NCBI GenBank assembly: GCA_017481065.1
Contig: JAFUPT010000111.1
Span: 1 to 17,389, forward strand
Direction of reading: 5' to 3'
DNA: 17,389 nucleotides
DNA from: Clostridia bacterium
GTDB lineage: Bacteria; Bacillota_A; Clostridia; Christensenellales; Aristaeellaceae
In this document: positions 199-17,389 of the stretch, piece by piece
Layout: every line of letters begins with the position of its first letter
How positions within the stretch are numbered: position 1 is the first letter of the stretch
Program-made: the position numbers and the translations under genes
Notes under the pieces: generated by a model
The model's database searches: none
Told to the model about the DNA's origin: nothing
Seen by the model: only the letters and a program-made list of their open reading frames with translations

Positions 199-284
199 CT
201 GCCGGGTCCAGGGGGAGGCTCTCCTCCTGGCAGGGGTTTGGGGACAGCGTCCCCAGCAGGTTCCCACAGCAGCGCCCCAGGAAA
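199..284 (+). repeat. Modular palindromic intergenic repeat, locus A (type I, diverged)
   Basis: Immediately after the T-run of the terminator comes a GGGTCCAGGGGG-type block. Its first hairpin is CCAGG-G-GGAG paired with CTCC-T-CCTGG (208-230). A CAGGGGTTT spacer follows, then GGGGAC (240-245), loop AGC, GTCCCC (249-254), then a degenerate third module (CAGCAGCGCCCC). Order and spacing match the type I modules in the other gaps, but the first hairpin has diverged. No coding function is supported here. The open frames are products of the GC-rich palindromes. Confidence 0.7.
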
Positions 285-6655: not shown

Positions 6656-6716
6656 CAGGGGACTCCGGCCCCTGAAACCCCTGCCAGGGGAAATGATTTC
6701 CCCTGGACCCCTCTGA
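6656..6716 (-). repeat. Modular palindromic repeat, locus B left arm (type I, minus orientation)
   Basis: Read on the minus strand away from the terminator at 6718-6741, this is the type I order. A CAGAGGGGT lead-in is followed by an 11-bp perfect stem (CCAGGGGAAAT at 6684-6694 with its complement at 6696-6706), then a CAGGGGTTT spacer, then a CAGGGG/CCCCTG stem (6656-6661 with 6669-6674). The 36 bases at 6680-6715 are the exact reverse complement of 15259-15294 in locus D. Confidence 0.8.
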
Positions 6717-6717
6717 A

Positions 6718-6741
6718 AAAGGCACACATTCGTGTGCCTTT
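6718..6741. terminator. Terminator hairpin 1 after the GH4 gene
   Basis: AAAGGCACAC (6718-6727), loop ATTC, GTGTGCCTTT (6732-6741), then TAATAAATAA. It is the left of two tandem terminators at the centre of repeat locus B. On the minus strand the stem is followed by a T-run, so it is potentially bidirectional. Confidence 0.7.
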
Positions 6742-6749
6742 AATAAATA

Positions 6750-6783
6750 AAACATCGACCCCGCTCCGGGGTCGATGTTTTTT
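6750..6783 (+). terminator. Terminator hairpin 2 after the GH4 gene
   Basis: AAACATCGACCCC (6750-6762), a 5-base loop, GGGGTCGATGTTT (6768-6780), with the T-run continuing to 6783. This strong 13-bp stem with six Ts is probably the main terminator of the GH4 transcript, and repeat module type II starts directly after its last T. Confidence 0.85.
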
Positions 6784-6882
6784 GCATGGGATTCTTAAGG
6801 GACAATGTCCCTTAAGCAGGATGCAGGGACAGCGTCCCTGCATGGGTTCCACGGGACAGCGTCCCTTGGCGTCTCCCCCCAT
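6784..6882 (+). repeat. Modular palindromic repeat, locus B right arm (type II, plus orientation)
   Basis: Starting at the last T of the terminator, GCATGGGATT leads into CTTAAGGGAC (6794-6803), loop AAT, GTCCCTTAAG. Next comes ATGCAGGGAC (6821-6830), loop AGC, GTCCCTGCAT (6834-6843), then GGGAC (6853-6857), loop AGC, GTCCC. It ends with a GGCGTCTCCCCCC tail resembling the ends of loci C and D. Bases 6784-6820 are the exact reverse complement of 15153-15189. No coding content. Confidence 0.8.
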
Positions 6883-7505: not shown

Positions 7506-7538
7506 AAAAAATCGATCCCGATCCGGGATCGATTTTTT
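7506..7538. terminator. Strong bidirectional Rho-independent terminator
   Basis: AAAAAATCGATCCCG (7506-7520), loop ATC, CGGGATCGATTTTTT (7524-7538) is a perfect 15-bp stem with U-tracts in both directions. It lies between the convergent SleB-like gene and ispE and serves both, and forms the centre of repeat locus C. Confidence 0.88.
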
Positions 7539-7542
7539 ATTC

Positions 7543-7656
7543 TGAGGGGTCCAGGGGAAATCATTTCCCCTGGTGGGGTTCTTAGGGGCAACACCCCTAA
7601 GCAGGGTGCAGGAACAGCATCCATGCCGTGGTCAGGGGCAGCGCCCCAGCATCCCC
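7543..7656 (+). repeat. Modular palindromic repeat, locus C right arm (type I)
   Basis: After the terminator and TATTCT comes GAGGGGT, then the 11-bp stem CCAGGGGAAAT (7551-7561) with its complement (7563-7573). A GGGGTT spacer follows, then CTTAGGGG (7581-7588), loop CAACA, CCCCTAAG (7594-7601). A decayed GCAGGAACAGCATCC module, then GGGGC (7635-7639), loop AGC, GCCCC lead to an AGCATCCCCC tail close to the ispE stop. Gene-free. Confidence 0.75.
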
Positions 7657-11523: not shown

Positions 11524-12018
11524 ATGCGCAAAGTTGGTATTGTAATGGGAAGCGACAGCGACCTGCCCATCATCCGCAAGGCTACCGACACCCTTTCCTC
11601 TCTGGGCATTCCCTATGAGGTACATATTTATTCCGCCCATCGCACGCCCGCGGAAGCCCGGGATTTTGCCTGCTCCGCCCGTGAAAAGGGTTTTGGCGCA
11701 ATCATTGCCGCCGCAGGCATGGCCGCCCACCTGGCCGGTGCCATCGCCGCAAACACCACGCTGCCGGTGATCGGCATTCCCTGCAAATCCAGCAACCTGG
11801 ACGGCATGGACGCCCTGCTCTCCACCGTGCAGATGCCCACCGGCATTCCGGTGGCCACGGTCGCCATCAACGGCGGCGCGAACGCAGCCCTGCTGGCCGC
11901 GCAGATCCTGGCGGTTGAGGACGGCGAGCTGGCCGCGAAGCTCGATAAGAAGCGCGCGGATGACGCAGCCAAGGTGCTCGAAAAGGATGCGAAGATCGCC
12001 GCCGAGCTGAACCAGTAA
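11524..12018 (+). CDS. purE: N5-carboxyaminoimidazole ribonucleotide mutase (PurE)
   Basis: It moves the carboxyl group of N5-CAIR to give CAIR in purine synthesis. The 164 residues match class I PurE. Motifs are G-S-D-S-D (9-13), the catalytic-loop [19 protein letters not shown] and [23 protein letters not shown]. The start has GGAGG five bases upstream and gives the family-standard [12 protein letters not shown] longer in-frame reading from 11380 runs through the structured leader and is rejected. It is the first gene of the purine operon. PurK, which normally makes N5-CAIR for class I PurE, is not in this window. Confidence 0.95.
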
Positions 12019-12053: not shown

Positions 12054-13481
12054 ATGGGAGGATTTTTCGGCGTCGCATCCAAGCAGGACGCCCTCACGGA
12101 TGTTTTCTTCGGCACAGACTATCATTCCCACCTGGGCACCCGCCGCGCGGGCATCGCCGCATGGGATAAAAAGCTCGGCCTGCAGCGCGAAATCCACAAC
12201 ATCCAGAATTCGCCTTTCCGCACCAAATTTGAGCATGTGTTCGATGAGATGCAGGGCACTTCCGCCATCGGCTGCATCAGCGATTATGATCCCCAGCCGC
12301 TGCTGATCCGATCGAATCTGGGCACTTACGCCATCTGTATCATCGGCGTGATCAACAATTCAGACGCGCTGATCAAGCAGTACCTTTCCTTCAGCGGCGG
12401 CCACTTCAACGCCATGACCGGCAGCGGCATCAACTCCACCGAGCTCTGCGCCGCGCTGATTAACCAGAAGAGCGATTTTGTGGATGGCATCAAGTTTGCC
12501 CAGAAGGAAATCGAGGGCAGCGCCAGCATACTGATCCTGAAGGAGGACGGCACCCTGATCGCCGCCCGCGACCGCATGGGCAGGCTTCCCGTGGTGATCG
12601 GTAGGGGCGAGGACGGCTACTGCGTGACCTTTGAATCCTTCGCCGCCCAGAAGCTGGGCTACGAGCTGGAAAAGGAGCTCGGTCCCGGCGAAATTGTGGA
12701 AATCACGGCGGATTCCATGGAGCAGCTCGCCGCGCCCGGCAAGAAGATGAAGATATGCTCCTTCCTCTGGAGCTACTACGGCTACCCCACCTCCAGCTAT
12801 GAGGGCGTGAATGTGGAAGTGATGCGCTACCGCAACGGCCAGATCATGGCCCGGAACGACAAGGCCGCCGGCAATGCCGAGGGCATCGATTATGTGGGCG
12901 GCGTACCGGATTCCGGAACTCCCCACGCCATCGGCTATTCCAATGAGAGCGGCGTACACTTCGCCCGCGCCTTCATCAAATACACCCCCACCTGGAGCCG
13001 CAGCTTCACCCCCACCCGGCAGAAGGAGCGCCAGCATGTGGCCAAAATGAAGCAGATTCCCGTGCATGAGCTGATCCAGGATAAGAACCTGCTCTTCGTG
13101 GACGACAGCATCGTGCGCGGCACCCAGCTGCAGGAAACCGTGGATTTCCTCTATGCCCACGGCGCGAAGGCCGTGCACATGAGAAGCGCATGCCCGCCCA
13201 TCATGTTCGGCTGCAAATACCTGAATTTCAGCCGCGCAACCAGCGATATGGAGCTGATCGCCCGGCGCACGATCCAGGAGCTGGAGGGCGAGGATGGCTT
13301 CAAATACGTTGAAGAATACGCCGATTCCAGCACTGAGCGCGGCAGGAAGCTGCGCGAAACCATATGCGAAAAGCTGAACTTTGCATCGCTGGAATTCCAG
13401 TCCATCGAGGGCATCATTGAAGCCATCGGCATTGAACCCTGCAAGCTCTGCACCTACTGCTGGAATGGAAAGGAAGATTGA
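12054..13481 (+). CDS. purF: PurF homologue (amidophosphoribosyltransferase) lacking the glutaminase active site
   Basis: PurF makes phosphoribosylamine from PRPP, normally with glutamine-derived ammonia. Here 475 residues hold an N-terminal Ntn-hydrolase-like domain (1-230) and a PRPP-transferase domain (235-475) with V-G-G-V-P-D-S-G (281-288) and the PRPP loop V-D-D-S-I-V-R-G-T (349-357). Cysteines matching the B. subtilis 4Fe-4S ligands are kept at 235, 387 and in the C-x2-C-x2-C tail (463, 466, 469). The N-terminus is M-G-G-F-F-G instead of M-C-G-x-F-G, so the nucleophilic Cys is absent. Arg73, Asn101 and Asp127 (E. coli numbering) also appear replaced. AAGGAG lies 8 bases ahead, and no alternative start adds a Cys. 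Operon position supports the committed purine step, perhaps using free ammonia. Confidence 0.85.
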
Positions 13482-13483
13482 TT

Positions 13484-14530
13484 ATGCACAGCAATTCCCG
13501 TTCGGACAGCTACGCCGCAGCAGGCGTTGATATTACCGCCGGCTACAAGGCCGTGGAACTGATGAAAAAGCACATCGCCCGCACCCGAAACGAGGGCTGC
13601 CTGGATGATGTGGGCGGCTTTGGCGGCTGCTTCGGCCTGAGCCTCGGCGGCATGGAGGAGCCGGTGCTGGTATCCGGCACCGATGGCTGCGGCACCAAGG
13701 TGAAGATGGCCATCCTGATGGACAAGCATGATACCATCGGCATCGACGCCGTGGCCATGTGCGTGAACGATATCATCTGCTGCGGCGCGAAGCCCCTGTT
13801 CTTCCTGGATTACATCGCCTGCGGCAAGAACATTCCCGAGAAGATCGCTTCCATCGTTTCCGGCGTGGCCGAGGGCTGCGTGCAGAGCGGCGCGGCGCTG
13901 ATCGGCGGCGAAACTGCCGAGCATCCCGGCATGATGCCCGTGGAGGAATATGACCTAGCTGGCTTCGCCGTGGGTATTGTGGATAAGAAAAAGATCATCG
14001 ACAATACCCGCATGCAGGCGGGCGACACCGTGATCGCCCTCGCTTCCAGCGGCATCCATTCCAACGGTTTCTCCCTGTGCCGCAAGGTATTCGACATTGA
14101 CAACAACAATCCCGCGCTCTACATCCCCCGGGAGGAGTTGGGCGGCAAGACCATCGCCGAAACCCTGCTGACCCCCACAAAGATTTATGTAAAGAGCATC
14201 CTTGAGCTCATCAGGCATGTGGATGTGAAGGGCGTGAGCCACATCACCGGCGGCGGCTTCTATGAAAACATTCCGCGCTCCATCCCGGATGGCCTCGGCG
14301 CGAAGATCGACAAATCCGCCGTGCGCATCCTGCCCATTTTCGACCTGATCGCCAAAGCGGGCAATATTCCCGAGCGCGACATGTTCAACACCTACAACAT
14401 GGGCGTGGGCATGAGCGTGATCGTTCCTGCCGCCGAAGCCGGAAAGGCCCTGGAAATCCTGAAGGCCAGCGGCGAGGACGCATACATCATCGGCGAAATC
14501 ATCGAATCGGAAGAAAAGGTGATCCTGTGA
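13484..14530 (+). CDS. purM: Phosphoribosylformylglycinamidine cyclo-ligase (AIR synthetase)
   Basis: It closes the imidazole ring of AIR from FGAM with ATP. The 348 residues are of usual length. Motifs in order: [56 protein letters not shown], and [15 protein letters not shown] six bases earlier is in frame, but AAGGAAG (13470-13476) is properly spaced only for the ATG at 13484, two bases after the purF stop. It overlaps purN by 4 bases. No purL/purQ (FGAM synthetase) is visible here, so that step is encoded elsewhere. Confidence 0.94.
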
Positions 14531-15123
14531 GCAAGAAGAGAATCGCAGTGCTCGTATCCGGCGGCGGCACGAACCTGCAGGCGCTGATCGACGCGCAGCA
14601 TTCCGGAGCCATCCGCAGCGGCGAGATCGCGCTGGTGATCTCCAACAACGCAAAGGCATATGCCCTTGAGCGCGCCGCAAACGCGGGCATCGAAAGCGCA
14701 GTGGTGCTCAAGAAGGAACTGGGCAGCCAATCGGCATTCGAGGCGGAAATCAAGCGTTTGCTGGCTGCTTACCAGATCGATATCATCGTTCTGGCGGGCT
14801 TCATGTCTATTCTGACCAAGGACTTCACCGACGCCTATCCCCGGCGCATCCTGAATGTGCATCCCTCCCTGATCCCCTCCTTCTGCGGCGAGGGCTTCTA
14901 CGGCCTGCGGGTACACGAAGCGGCGCTCGCCAAGGGCGTGAAGGTGACCGGCGCGACGGTGCACTTCGTAAATGAAATTCCCGACGGCGGCGAGATCATC
15001 TTCCAGAAAGCCGTCGAAATTGAACCCGGCGACACCCCCGAATCCCTGCAGCTGCGCGTGATGCAGCAGGCCGAGTGGATAATCCTGCCGGCGGCCGTGG
15101 AGAAGGTTTGCGCGGAGGGCTAA
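14527..15123 (+). CDS. purN: Phosphoribosylglycinamide formyltransferase 1
   Basis: It transfers a formyl group from 10-formyl-THF to GAR. The 198 residues fit. [13 protein letters not shown] forms the phosphate-binding loop, and [10 protein letters not shown] supplies the catalytic Asn and His. [16 protein letters not shown] carries the active-site Asp. It begins with GTG inside a GTGA overlap with the purM stop, a typical translational-coupling junction. Repeat locus D begins immediately after its stop and separates it from the next purine gene. Confidence 0.94.
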
Positions 15124-15192
15124 CGCTTAGGGGACTCCGTCCCCTAAGAACCCCTGCTTAAGGGACATTGTCCCTTAAGAATCCCATGCAAG
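15124..15192 (-). repeat. Modular palindromic repeat, locus D left arm (type II, minus orientation)
   Basis: Two perfect hairpins: CTTAGGGGAC (15126-15135), loop TCC, GTCCCCTAAG; and CTTAAGGGAC (15157-15166), loop ATT, GTCCCTTAAG. A CTTAAG-to-CCCATGC connector then leads to the central hairpin at 15193. Bases 15153-15189 are the exact reverse complement of 6784-6820 at locus B. It starts in the purN stop codon region, inside the purine operon. Confidence 0.8.
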
Positions 15193-15256
15193 GCAAATCG
15201 CGCCATTCGGCGGCGCGATTTGCAAGAATAATTCTCCAGCGGCGCATTGCGCCGCT
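15193..15256. repeat. Central hairpin pair of locus D
   Basis: GCAAATCGCGCC (15193-15204), 7-base loop, GGCGCGATTTGC (15212-15223) is a perfect 12-bp stem. A second stem follows: AGCGGCGC (15238-15245), loop ATT, GCGCCGCT (15249-15256). They occupy the place held by terminators at loci A-C but lack a U-tract on either strand, so operon read-through into the next purine genes is plausible. Confidence 0.7.
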
Positions 15257-15258
15257 TA

Positions 15259-15330
15259 CAGAGGGGTCCAGGGGAAATCATTTCCCCTGGCAGGAGTCTG
15301 AGGGCAGCGCCCTCAGCATCTCCCCCACAA
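15259..15330 (+). repeat. Modular palindromic repeat, locus D right arm (type I)
   Basis: CAGAGGGGT, then CCAGGGGAAAT (15268-15278) with its complement (15280-15290), a CAGGAGT spacer, CTGAGGGC (15298-15305), loop AGC, GCCCTCAG (15309-15316), ending with CATCTCCCCC. Bases 15259-15294 equal the reverse complement of 6680-6715. It ends about 15 bases before the ribosome site of the next gene. Confidence 0.8.
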
Positions 15331-15356
15331 CTACACCAACAAAGGAGCAGCATCCT

Positions 15357-16079
15357 ATGAATATTTATGAAATCCATGACATTGCAAAGCTGATCGAGGG
15401 CAATTCCTATGTGGGCCGCGGCATTGTGATTGGCAAGAGCGCGGACGCAAAGAAGGCGGTTGCCGCATACTTCATCATGGGCCGCAGCGCCAACAGCCGC
15501 AACCGCGTATTTGCGGAGCACGACGGCGCGGTATTCACCGAGCCCTTCGACGCATCCAAGGTGGAAGACCCGAGCCTGATCATCTACGCCGCGATCCGCG
15601 CCATCGGCAACAAGCTGATCGTGACCAACGGCGACCAGACCGACACCATCTACGAGGGCATCAAAGCGGGAAAGAGCTTTTCCGAGGCCCTGCGCAGCCG
15701 CGCCTTTGAGCCGGACGCGCCGAACCTCACTCCCCGCATCAGCGGCATGCTGGAATTCGGCGAGAAAGATTTCAGCTACCAGATGAGCATTTTGAAGAGC
15801 GCCGACGCGGAGGGCACCGCCTGCAACCGCTACACCTTCGATTATGCCGCGCTGCCGGGGCTGGGCCACTTCATCCACACCTATGTTTGCGACGGCAATC
15901 CCATTCCCACCTTCCAGGGCGAGCCGGAGCGCGTGATGATTCCCGACGACATCGATGCATTCACCGCCTCCCTGTGGAATGCGCTGGATGAAAACAACAA
16001 GATTTCCCTCTATGTGCGCTACATCGACCTCGCCACCGGCGAGACCGAAAACCGCATGATCAACAAGAACAAGGAATAA
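15357..16079 (+). CDS. purO: IMP cyclohydrolase, archaeal PurO type
   Basis: It closes FAICAR to IMP, the last step of purine synthesis. The 240-residue protein resembles the PurO-type IMP cyclohydrolase family, with G-N-S-Y-V-G-R-G-I-V-I-G, A-Y-F-I-M-G-R-S-A-N-S-R-N-R-V-F and T-N-G-D-Q-T-D-T-I-Y. It does not resemble the N-terminal half of bacterial PurH. AAAGGAG lies nine bases before the ATG. The neighbouring downstream gene is the AICAR transformylase that makes its substrate, 14 bases away with the same AAAGGAGCAG ribosome sequence. It is preceded by repeat locus D. Confidence comes from the motifs and context; I could not compare sequences directly. A reading from 15168 extends through the repeat and is rejected. 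Confidence 0.85.
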   Translation: MNIYEIHDIAKLIEGNSYVGRGIVIGKSADAKKAVAAYFIMGRSANSRNRVFAEHDGAVFTEPFDASKVEDPSLIIYAAIRAIGNKLIVTNGDQTDTIYEGIKAGKSFSEALRSRAFEPDAPNLTPRISGMLEFGEKDFSYQMSILKSADAEGTACNRYTFDYAALPGLGHFIHTYVCDGNPIPTFQGEPERVMIPDDIDAFTASLWNALDENNKISLYVRYIDLATGETENRMINKNKE

Positions 16080-16093
16080 AGGAGCAGATCACC

Positions 16094-17269
16094 ATGCAGG
16101 AACTCGAACTCAAGTACGGCTGCAATCCCAACCAGAAGCCTTCCCGTATCTTTATGGAAAACGGCGAGCTGCCCATCGAGGTGCTCTGCGGCCGTCCCGG
16201 CTACATCAACTTCCTTGACGCTCTGAACAGCTATCAGCTGGTTCGAGAGCTGAAGATCGCCACCGGCATGCCCGCCGCCGCGTCCTTCAAGCACGTTTCC
16301 CCCGCCGGCGCTGCCATCGGCCTGCCGCTGACCGATGTGCTCCGCACCATTTACTTCGTTCCCGAAGGATTGGAGCTTACTCCCCTTGCCTGCGCTTATG
16401 CCCGCGCCCGCGGCGCCGACCGCATGTCCTCCTTCGGCGATTTCGTTGCCCTGAGCGATATTTGCGATGTTCCCACCGCCATGCTGATCAAGAACGAGGT
16501 TTCCGACGGCGTGATCGCCCCCGGCTACGAGCCCGAGGCCCTGGAGATTCTGAAGAGCAAGCGCAAGGGCGGCTACAATGTAATCAAGATCGATCCCAGC
16601 TATGTGCCTGCGCCCGTGGAGCGCAAGCAGGTTTTCGGCATCACCTTTGAACAGGGCCGCAACAACTTTGAGATCAACGAAGAACTGCTTTCCAAGGTTG
16701 TCACCAAAAACAACAGCCTGACCGCCGAACAGAAGCGCGACCTGATGATCAGCCTGATCACCCTGAAATATACCCAGAGCAATTCCGTGTGCTACGCCAA
16801 GGATGGCCAGGCCATCGGCATCGGCGCCGGCCAGCAGAGCCGCGTGCACTGCACCCGCCTCGCCGGCAACAAGGCCGATAACTGGTTCCTGCGCCAGCAT
16901 GAAAAGACCCTGGCGCTGCCCTTCAAGCCGGAGCTGGGCCGTCCCGAGCGCAACAACGCCATCGATGTTTACATCTCCGACGACTATGAGGACGTGATCG
17001 GCGACGACGTATGGGCCGATTTCTTTACCGAGCAGCCCGCCGCCCTCACCCGCGAAGAAAAGAAGGCCTACCTGGTACAGCAGACCGGCGTTGCCCTGGG
17101 CTCCGACGCCTTCTTCCCCTTCCCGGATAACATCGTCCGTGCAAAGCGCAGCGGCGTTACCTGCATCGCCCAGCCCGGCGGCTCCATCCGCGATGACCTG
17201 GTGATCGAAGCCTGCGACAAATACGGCATGGCGATGGCCTTCACCGGCATGCGCCTGTTCCACCACTAA
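16094..17269 (+). CDS. purH: AICAR transformylase, stand-alone (PurH C-terminal-domain type)
   Basis: It formylates AICAR to FAICAR using 10-formyl-THF. The 391 residues correspond to the transformylase part of PurH. The N-terminal L-K-Y-G-C-N-P-N-Q-K-P and the catalytic Lys66-His67 pair in A-S-F-K-H-V-S-P-A-G-A-A are present. S-S-F-G-D-F-V-A-L-S, the Q-S-N-S-V-C-Y-A-K-D-G-Q-A-I-G-I-G-A-G-Q-Q-S-R substrate-binding stretch and D-A-F-F-P-F-P-D-N complete the match. The IMP cyclohydrolase domain fused in most bacteria is absent and its job falls to the preceding PurO-type gene. AAAGGAG lies 9 bases ahead. Repeat locus E follows the stop directly; purD could lie beyond the window edge. Confidence 0.93.
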   Translation: MQELELKYGCNPNQKPSRIFMENGELPIEVLCGRPGYINFLDALNSYQLVRELKIATGMPAAASFKHVSPAGAAIGLPLTDVLRTIYFVPEGLELTPLACAYARARGADRMSSFGDFVALSDICDVPTAMLIKNEVSDGVIAPGYEPEALEILKSKRKGGYNVIKIDPSYVPAPVERKQVFGITFEQGRNNFEINEELLSKVVTKNNSLTAEQKRDLMISLITLKYTQSNSVCYAKDGQAIGIGAGQQSRVHCTRLAGNKADNWFLRQHEKTLALPFKPELGRPERNNAIDVYISDDYEDVIGDDVWADFFTEQPAALTREEKKAYLVQQTGVALGSDAFFPFPDNIVRAKRSGVTCIAQPGGSIRDDLVIEACDKYGMAMAFTGMRLFHH

Positions 17270-17285: not shown

Positions 17286-17361
17286 GGAACGCTTAGGGGA
17301 CATTGTCCCTTAAGAATCCCATGCATAGCAAATCGCGCCATTCGGCGGCGCGAGTTGCAAG
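17286..17361 (-). repeat. Modular palindromic repeat, locus E (type II, minus orientation, chimeric hairpin)
   Basis: CTTAGGGGAC (17292-17301), loop ATT, GTCCCTTAAG (17305-17314), a connector, then GCAAATCGCGCC (17328-17339), 7-base loop, GGCGCGAGTTGC (17347-17358). Bases 17292-17361 match 15157-15226 of locus D at 66 of 70 positions without gaps. The first hairpin joins the 5' arm of D's outer hairpin with the 3' arm of D's inner one. The remaining bases to 17389 hold a run of seven As and no visible gene. Confidence 0.75.
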
Positions 17362-17389
17362 GAAAAAAACGGTGGATTGTGGGTAAGCC

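Follow-up and report, generated by a model that had tools for sequence, protein, structure and literature searches.

Glutaminase-less PurF homologues of gut and rumen Clostridia as probable ammonia-dependent phosphoribosylamine synthases

By standard teaching, the first committed reaction on the way to purines needs glutamine. A PurF homologue found in many members of one clostridial order, and annotated as the standard enzyme wherever it bears a name, appears to have abandoned glutamine entirely. Our example is encoded at 12054..13481 (forward strand) of the window, by which we mean the whole 17,389-nucleotide stretch of DNA that was analysed. Its reading frame is uninterrupted, starts with ATG, and specifies 475 amino acids with the N-terminus M-G-G-F-F-G. 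We refer to this protein and its clade as PurF'. Judging from sequence comparisons, PurF' is probably an ammonia-dependent phosphoribosylamine synthase. That is, it would keep the PurF fold and PRPP site, would be unable to hydrolyse glutamine, and would carry out the first step of the purine operon by converting PRPP and free NH3 to the 5-phosphoribosylamine that purD uses; the NH3 activity itself is what we infer. In ammonia-rich guts and rumens PurF' could be the only PurF. Ammonium-scavenging relatives would add a glutamine-dependent, Cys-bearing PurF, often in a module with AmtB-PII, GOGAT, AsnB, PyrG, GuaA or GlmS. The Cys-PurF would be the glutamine isozyme of this ammonium-scavenging module, which, we infer, acts when ammonium is scarce.

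We compared residues in a MAFFT alignment of 113 PurF' rows and 41 canonical PurFs from related genomes, and counted N-termini and the D-D-S-I-V-R-G-T motif over 118 PurF' rows. Four residues of the canonical enzyme (C1, R73, N101 and D127) were present in 41/41 canonical rows, and none of the four occurred in any of the 113 PurF' rows. The original prediction had been right that no Cys follows the initiator, that Ile replaces Asn101 and that Ser replaces Asp127. At the place of the B. subtilis PurF nucleophile, Cys1, the window protein has Gly2 (codon 12057..12059, forward strand, as for all codons below); in the trimmed multiple alignment Cys1 falls on Met1. The canonical oxyanion Asn101 is Ile97 (12342..12344), and this column held 68 Ile, 35 Val, 10 Thr and no Asn across the 113 PurF' rows. 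The glutamine-binding Asp127 is Ser128 (12435..12437), in a column with no Asp in any of these rows. Arg73 was likewise found in no PurF' row, as predicted. The Ser proposed in its stead (Ser76, 12279..12281) stands opposite Arg73 only in the ungapped register that lays I-G-C-I-S-D on I-G-H-V-R-Y, whereas MAFFT places a gap at the R-Y-x-T stretch. According to PMC3261824, replacing Cys1 in E. coli PurF leaves the enzyme able to use ammonia.

The phosphoribosyltransferase site, on the other hand, was kept, as were the Fe-S ligands. The window protein has the P-D-S-G motif (12906..12917), the PRPP loop (13095..13124) and the basic residues of the flexible loop, and the alignment thus bore out the predicted retention of the loop and of P-D-S-G. 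PRPP-site residues (those of P-D-S-G and K309; R316, Q323, R326 and K333) were 96–100% conserved across PurF' rows. The sequence D-D-S-I-V-R-G-T was exact in 113/118 rows; four others differed at one hydrophobic or terminal position, and the PurF' of genome G070, alone among the 118, had Glu for the first Asp (E-D-S-I-V-R-G-T). All four Fe-S cysteine ligands of the B. subtilis type (C235, C387, C466 and C469; span 12756..13460, forward strand) were found in the window protein and were kept in 112–113 of 113 PurF' rows (99–100%): C235 and C387 in every row, C466 and C469 in 112, with one gap. The cluster ligands are therefore retained as predicted, but they number four and not five.

The earlier statement that the entire glutaminase site had been erased proved too strong. 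Its catalytic and binding residues are gone, but the Ntn fold, the oxyanion Gly (Gly102, retained as Gly98 in 113/113 PurF' rows) and a match to Pfam GATase_7 (31.6 bits, cut-off 25) remain. The former glutaminase domain has its own set of PurF'-specific conserved residues, for example D22-Y23-H24-S25-x-L27 and P54-F55-R56-T57, and it is therefore probably under selection, perhaps for structure or for ammonia entry. The window protein and its 119 best listed homologues all start MGG[FY]FG. Among the 118 rows, 7 (including those at loci L186, L187, L188, L192 and L193) start M-S-G, with Ser at the canonical Cys place, and the other 111 have Gly there.

Two trivial explanations of the missing residues were considered and rejected. 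A mis-called start hiding a Cys was ruled out: a Shine-Dalgarno-like AAGGAG lies just 5' of the ATG at 12054, the start position is shared by relatives, and neither a start nor a Cys occurs in the four in-frame codons that separate this ATG from the nearest upstream stop. Decay into a pseudogene was also ruled out, because all 84 PurF' copies in the order sample lack internal stops and the clade has strict conservation of its own. With the shared MGG[FY]FG start, this agrees with the predicted patterned loss rather than random decay.

An AlphaFold2 model of the window protein (pLDDT 85.1, pTM 0.84) predicted an Ntn fold joined to a type I phosphoribosyltransferase fold; pLDDT fell below 50 in the PRPP flexible loop, at residues 311–320 and 327–336. 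The 17 best PDB fold matches to the model were all PurF chains, with 1ao0_A at the top (TM 0.78/0.81). A protein search scored at least 8000 relatives. A quick tree built from 110 rows, 105 of them different, separated 68 PurF' from 42 canonical sequences on one branch with a support of 100, and on this sequence evidence the window protein belongs to a distinct clade. Members carry the label amidophosphoribosyltransferase where their sources name them. The near relatives are nearly all from metagenome-assembled genomes (MAGs), many of them from rumen and gut by their record titles; a cultured carrier, by its source name, is Lachnoclostridium phytofermentans. PurF' was present in 84/148 genomes of one order and in 20/299 genomes of a phylum-level sample.

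The gene lies in a purine operon with the order purE-purF'-purM-purN-purO-purH1, preceded by a ZTP riboswitch, all on the forward strand. The ZTP/ZMP riboswitch aptamer (RF01750, 11357..11449) scored 50.4 bits in Rfam against a gathering score of 39. Behind it come purE (11524..12018; NCBIfam TIGR01162, 201.5 bits, cut-off 149.6), purF' at 12054..13481, purM (13478..14530; TIGR00878, 426.9 bits) and purN (14527..15123; TIGR00639, 205.8 bits). PurF' itself fails the family cut-off of TIGR01134 (175 versus 350 bits), and its best PDB sequence match is B. subtilis PurF, 1ao0. The operon continues with a divergent purO-like IMP cyclohydrolase (15357..16079; 64.7 and 60.8 bits for PRK04151 and TIGR01922, below their cut-offs of 150 and 158), whose start is given as the ATG of the conserved part, the profile query having begun at 15345. 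It continues further with an AICAR formyltransferase of the PurH1 type, which has no cyclohydrolase half (16094..17269; NF005492, 688.5 bits, cut-off 415). The final two purine steps are thus assigned in the window to separate domains, an arrangement described in PMC3261824 as an archaeal habit; among near loci with enough flank, PurO was found in 42/45 and PurH1 in 43/45. The view of purF' as an in-frame member of a live purine operon fits the window and the relatives close to it. It does not extend to 11 of 20 contexts picked for distance or diversity, where no purine neighbour was recognised; seven of these 11 are in PurF'-only genomes. At loci L184–L194, PurF' was seen without any recognised purine gene in 10.8–19.5 kb.

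We then asked how PurF' and canonical PurF are distributed. The 36 near genomes, which are those of 36 of the 80 near loci and were picked mostly for long contigs, all had PurF'; canonical PurF was found in 8 and was absent from 28, and purD, whose product uses phosphoribosylamine, was found in 35. The order sample comprised 148 genomes, for which a completeness of 95 is the requested value and not a per-genome measurement. Canonical PurF occurred in 110 of these and PurF' in 84: 51 genomes had both, 33 PurF' alone, 59 canonical PurF alone and 5 neither. Gene purC was present in 32/33 PurF'-only genomes and missing from 4/5 genomes with neither PurF. Among purC-bearing genomes, canonical PurF was found in 59/60 without PurF' versus 51/83 with PurF' (Fisher p = 3e-8). 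Canonical PurF is thus often missing where PurF' and purC are present, and by this reading of gene content it is dispensable where PurF' exists. Incompleteness of MAGs is unlikely to explain the pattern, since canonical PurF was absent from 32/83 purC-bearing genomes with PurF' versus 1/60 without it. Gaps could nonetheless account for some absences: AsnB is retained next to an over-cut-off purC in G047 and G100, with amt at the same place in G047. In the phylum sample, all 16 additional PurF' genomes also had canonical PurF (14 of these with amt), and sole use of PurF' is therefore limited to certain lineages. Two kinds of purC were seen in the order sample. The below-cut-off kind, which is the only purC in 24/33 PurF'-only genomes, mostly aligns over ~215 model positions and is in two pieces in G178.

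Of the two explanations first offered, an ammonia-dependent enzyme and a partner that supplies ammonia, these results favour the former: PurF' takes the place of canonical PurF in many genomes that keep purine genes, and mostly does so in the absence of Amt and AsnB. The ammonium transporter gene amt was found in 5/59 PurF'-only genomes, 45/59 genomes with both proteins and 38/59 canonical-only genomes. The difference between genomes with both and PurF'-only genomes was highly significant (Fisher p = 2e-14), and in the order sample alone the counts were 38/51 versus 2/33. AsnB was found in 2/33 PurF'-only genomes versus 27/47 with both; the search for it took in 47 of the 51 genomes of the order sample that carry both proteins. 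Both trends survived phylogenetic pairing. Along the PurF' tree (118 rows), canonical PurF switches between present and absent 23 times. For amt, 15 independent pairs gave averages of 8.6 changing in the same way, 0.3 in the opposite way and 6.2 with no difference (median sign-test p = 0.008, range 0.002–0.07). For AsnB, 12 independent pairs gave 8.0, 0.0 and 4.0, respectively (median p = 0.008, range 0.001–0.125). Since Amt, AsnB and canonical purF frequently lie close together and may move as one block, they are not three independent witnesses, and their co-variation may be taken as evidence for gain or loss of a module, not as separate proofs. PurF' itself was never within 100 kb of amt on one contig in the 50 PurF' genomes with amt.

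The surroundings of canonical purF were read in 50 of the 59 genomes with both proteins, five of the 50 having been picked because the two genes are in tandem. The remaining nine (G050, G062, G076, G077, G098, G124, G135, G141 and G153) are tandem by coordinates and were counted as such. As a control we read 20 of the 59 genomes with canonical PurF only, following the order of the list approximately. We identified context genes by BLAST against 25 reference proteins, the majority annotated with NCBIfam; the references for three GOGAT pieces, PurC, PurD and PurL were named by sequence or position, with one PurL checked, and some contexts end at contig ends. Where canonical purF lay apart from purF', in 26/45 cases it had two or more of AsnB, PyrG, GuaA, GlmS, Amt-PII, GOGAT subunits and GlnA within 9 kb, and in 2/45 it was in a purine operon. 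In the 20 genomes without PurF', in contrast, it was near at least two nitrogen or amidotransferase genes in 4 and in a purine operon in 13 (Fisher p = 0.007 and 4e-7 for the two contrasts). Examples of the module are GlnA-AsnB-PyrG-GlnA-Amt::PII-GOGAT-PurF (L141) and AsnB-GuaA-Amt::PII-PurF (L143). Taken alone, amt within 10 kb of canonical purF did not differ significantly between genomes with both (12/59) and canonical-only genomes (4/59; p = 0.057). Three genomes without PurF' (G039, G071 and G150; the first two are loci L241 and L242) have two over-cut-off PurFs, one adjoining purC and one near amt, showing that a purF in the nitrogen module does not require PurF'. In 14/59 genomes with both, purF and purF' stand in tandem (13 of the 14 with amt), and an isozyme switch by separate promoters is therefore unlikely there.

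These tandem pairs also speak for the view that PurF' is fed ammonia by another glutaminase, a Cys-PurF in a mixed oligomer in tandem genomes and some other partner in the rest. So does the N-terminal domain of PurF', which is whole and highly conserved. We nevertheless consider this reading unlikely. Genomes with PurF' alone have no Cys-PurF to serve as partner, in the window the genes from purE through purN follow one another without space for a partner gene, and across the 78 near loci with at least three purine genes adjacent purine frames are separated by more than 450 nt in only 23 places, of which 15 lie between purM and purN. Ten representatives of the other recurrent flanking ORF groups (forward-strand groups near PurF' loci, the reverse-strand ones being likely shadows) matched families of pyrimidine metabolism or transport; none of them was a glutaminase that recurs beside the operon, which argues against a dedicated partner there. 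At one locus, PurL has retained a glutaminase domain of its own. The predicted ammonia-supplying partner thus finds no support in PurF'-only genomes, and a mixed PurF/PurF' complex is possible in the 14 tandem genomes.

A regulator, or a different phosphoribosyltransferase, would fit the deep split from canonical PurF, the many invariant residues specific to PurF', its coexistence with PurF in many genomes and the 11 contexts without a purine neighbour. It is a quite improbable reading, because 32/33 PurF'-only genomes, with purC, would then have no known enzyme for the first step, and the residues of the PRPP site and flexible loop are retained. It is very improbable indeed that PurF' still hydrolyses glutamine through a re-invented active site. 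New conserved polar residues do occur in the old glutaminase domain (H24, S25, S76, D77 and N127), and the M-S-G starts put Ser at the canonical Cys place in 7/118 members, but the remaining 111 have Gly there, and nothing is left of the oxyanion Asn or of the Arg and Asp that bind glutamine. In E. coli PurF, furthermore, exchanging the Cys for Ser abolishes glutamine use, as described in PMC3261824. An ammonia-dependent synthase is thus the reading that we prefer.

PurF' shares with the Fe-S type PurF of B. subtilis (EC 2.4.2.14; 1ao0, 1gph) the fold, the PRPP motifs, the four Fe-S cysteines and the place in a purine operon. It differs in having no Cys1, Arg73, Asn101 or Asp127, in forming a separate deep clade, and in scoring 175 bits where the family cut-off is 350. 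Another parallel in print is the crenarchaeal PurF' of Brown et al. (2011, PMC3261824), also a PurF homologue without the N-terminal Cys and near purine genes; our comparison is with its published description, and a shared clade is not implied. By that description the crenarchaeal protein accompanies a Cys-bearing PurF in the Crenarchaeota studied, whereas the bacterial PurF' is often the only PurF. Ammonia use was put forward there in 2011 as a proposal only. A PurF without Cys and the idea of ammonia use were thus already in print for Crenarchaeota. The literature that we searched, mostly by title and the beginnings of abstracts, yielded no description of a bacterial glutaminase-less PurF, and within it the bacterial clade is undescribed. 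An analogous division of labour is known for asparagine synthetases: AsnA and AsnB are an ammonia and a glutamine isozyme for one biosynthetic step, as we suggest for PurF' and PurF, but AsnA and AsnB have unrelated folds, whereas PurF' and PurF are homologous, one of them with its glutaminase disabled. In Prevotella ruminicola, an amtB-glnK-asnB cluster beside GSIII-GOGAT responds to ammonium, in a direction that is stated inconsistently in the source (PMC5552732).

On balance, we lean slightly toward a broader scheme in which many Clostridia of gut and rumen draw on free ammonia, through PurF', for their purines and hold a glutamine-dependent PurF only in a detachable ammonium-scavenging module (with glutamine-dependent AsnB, PyrG, GuaA or GlmS). 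The result would be a switch of nitrogen donor, ammonia or glutamine, across the whole genome. If PurF' works as we propose, the nitrogen donor of purines is wrong in metabolic models of these gut bacteria, the archaeal proposal of 2011 can be put to the test in bacteria, and the lack of Amt, AsnB and Gln-PurF together would be a mark of adaptation to permanently high ammonia. The same ammonia rule may apply to carbamoyl phosphate, because carB occurs without a neighbouring carA in near relatives. At 11 near loci (L001, L016, L019, L024, L044, L053, L060, L064, L067, L072 and L076) a pyrimidine cluster, pyrC-carB-pyrK-pyrD..., flanks the purine operon, as at L024:346-9172. No carA-like ORF lies beside carB at these 11 loci, and pyrC, where visible, directly adjoins carB; if carA is absent from those genomes, their carbamoyl phosphate too may come from ammonia. 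Lastly, we observed repeats of ~44–76 nt, 64–92% alike and some of them palindromic, between several genes of the window (201-244, 6668-6820, 7537-7589, 15153-15304 and 17291-17366).
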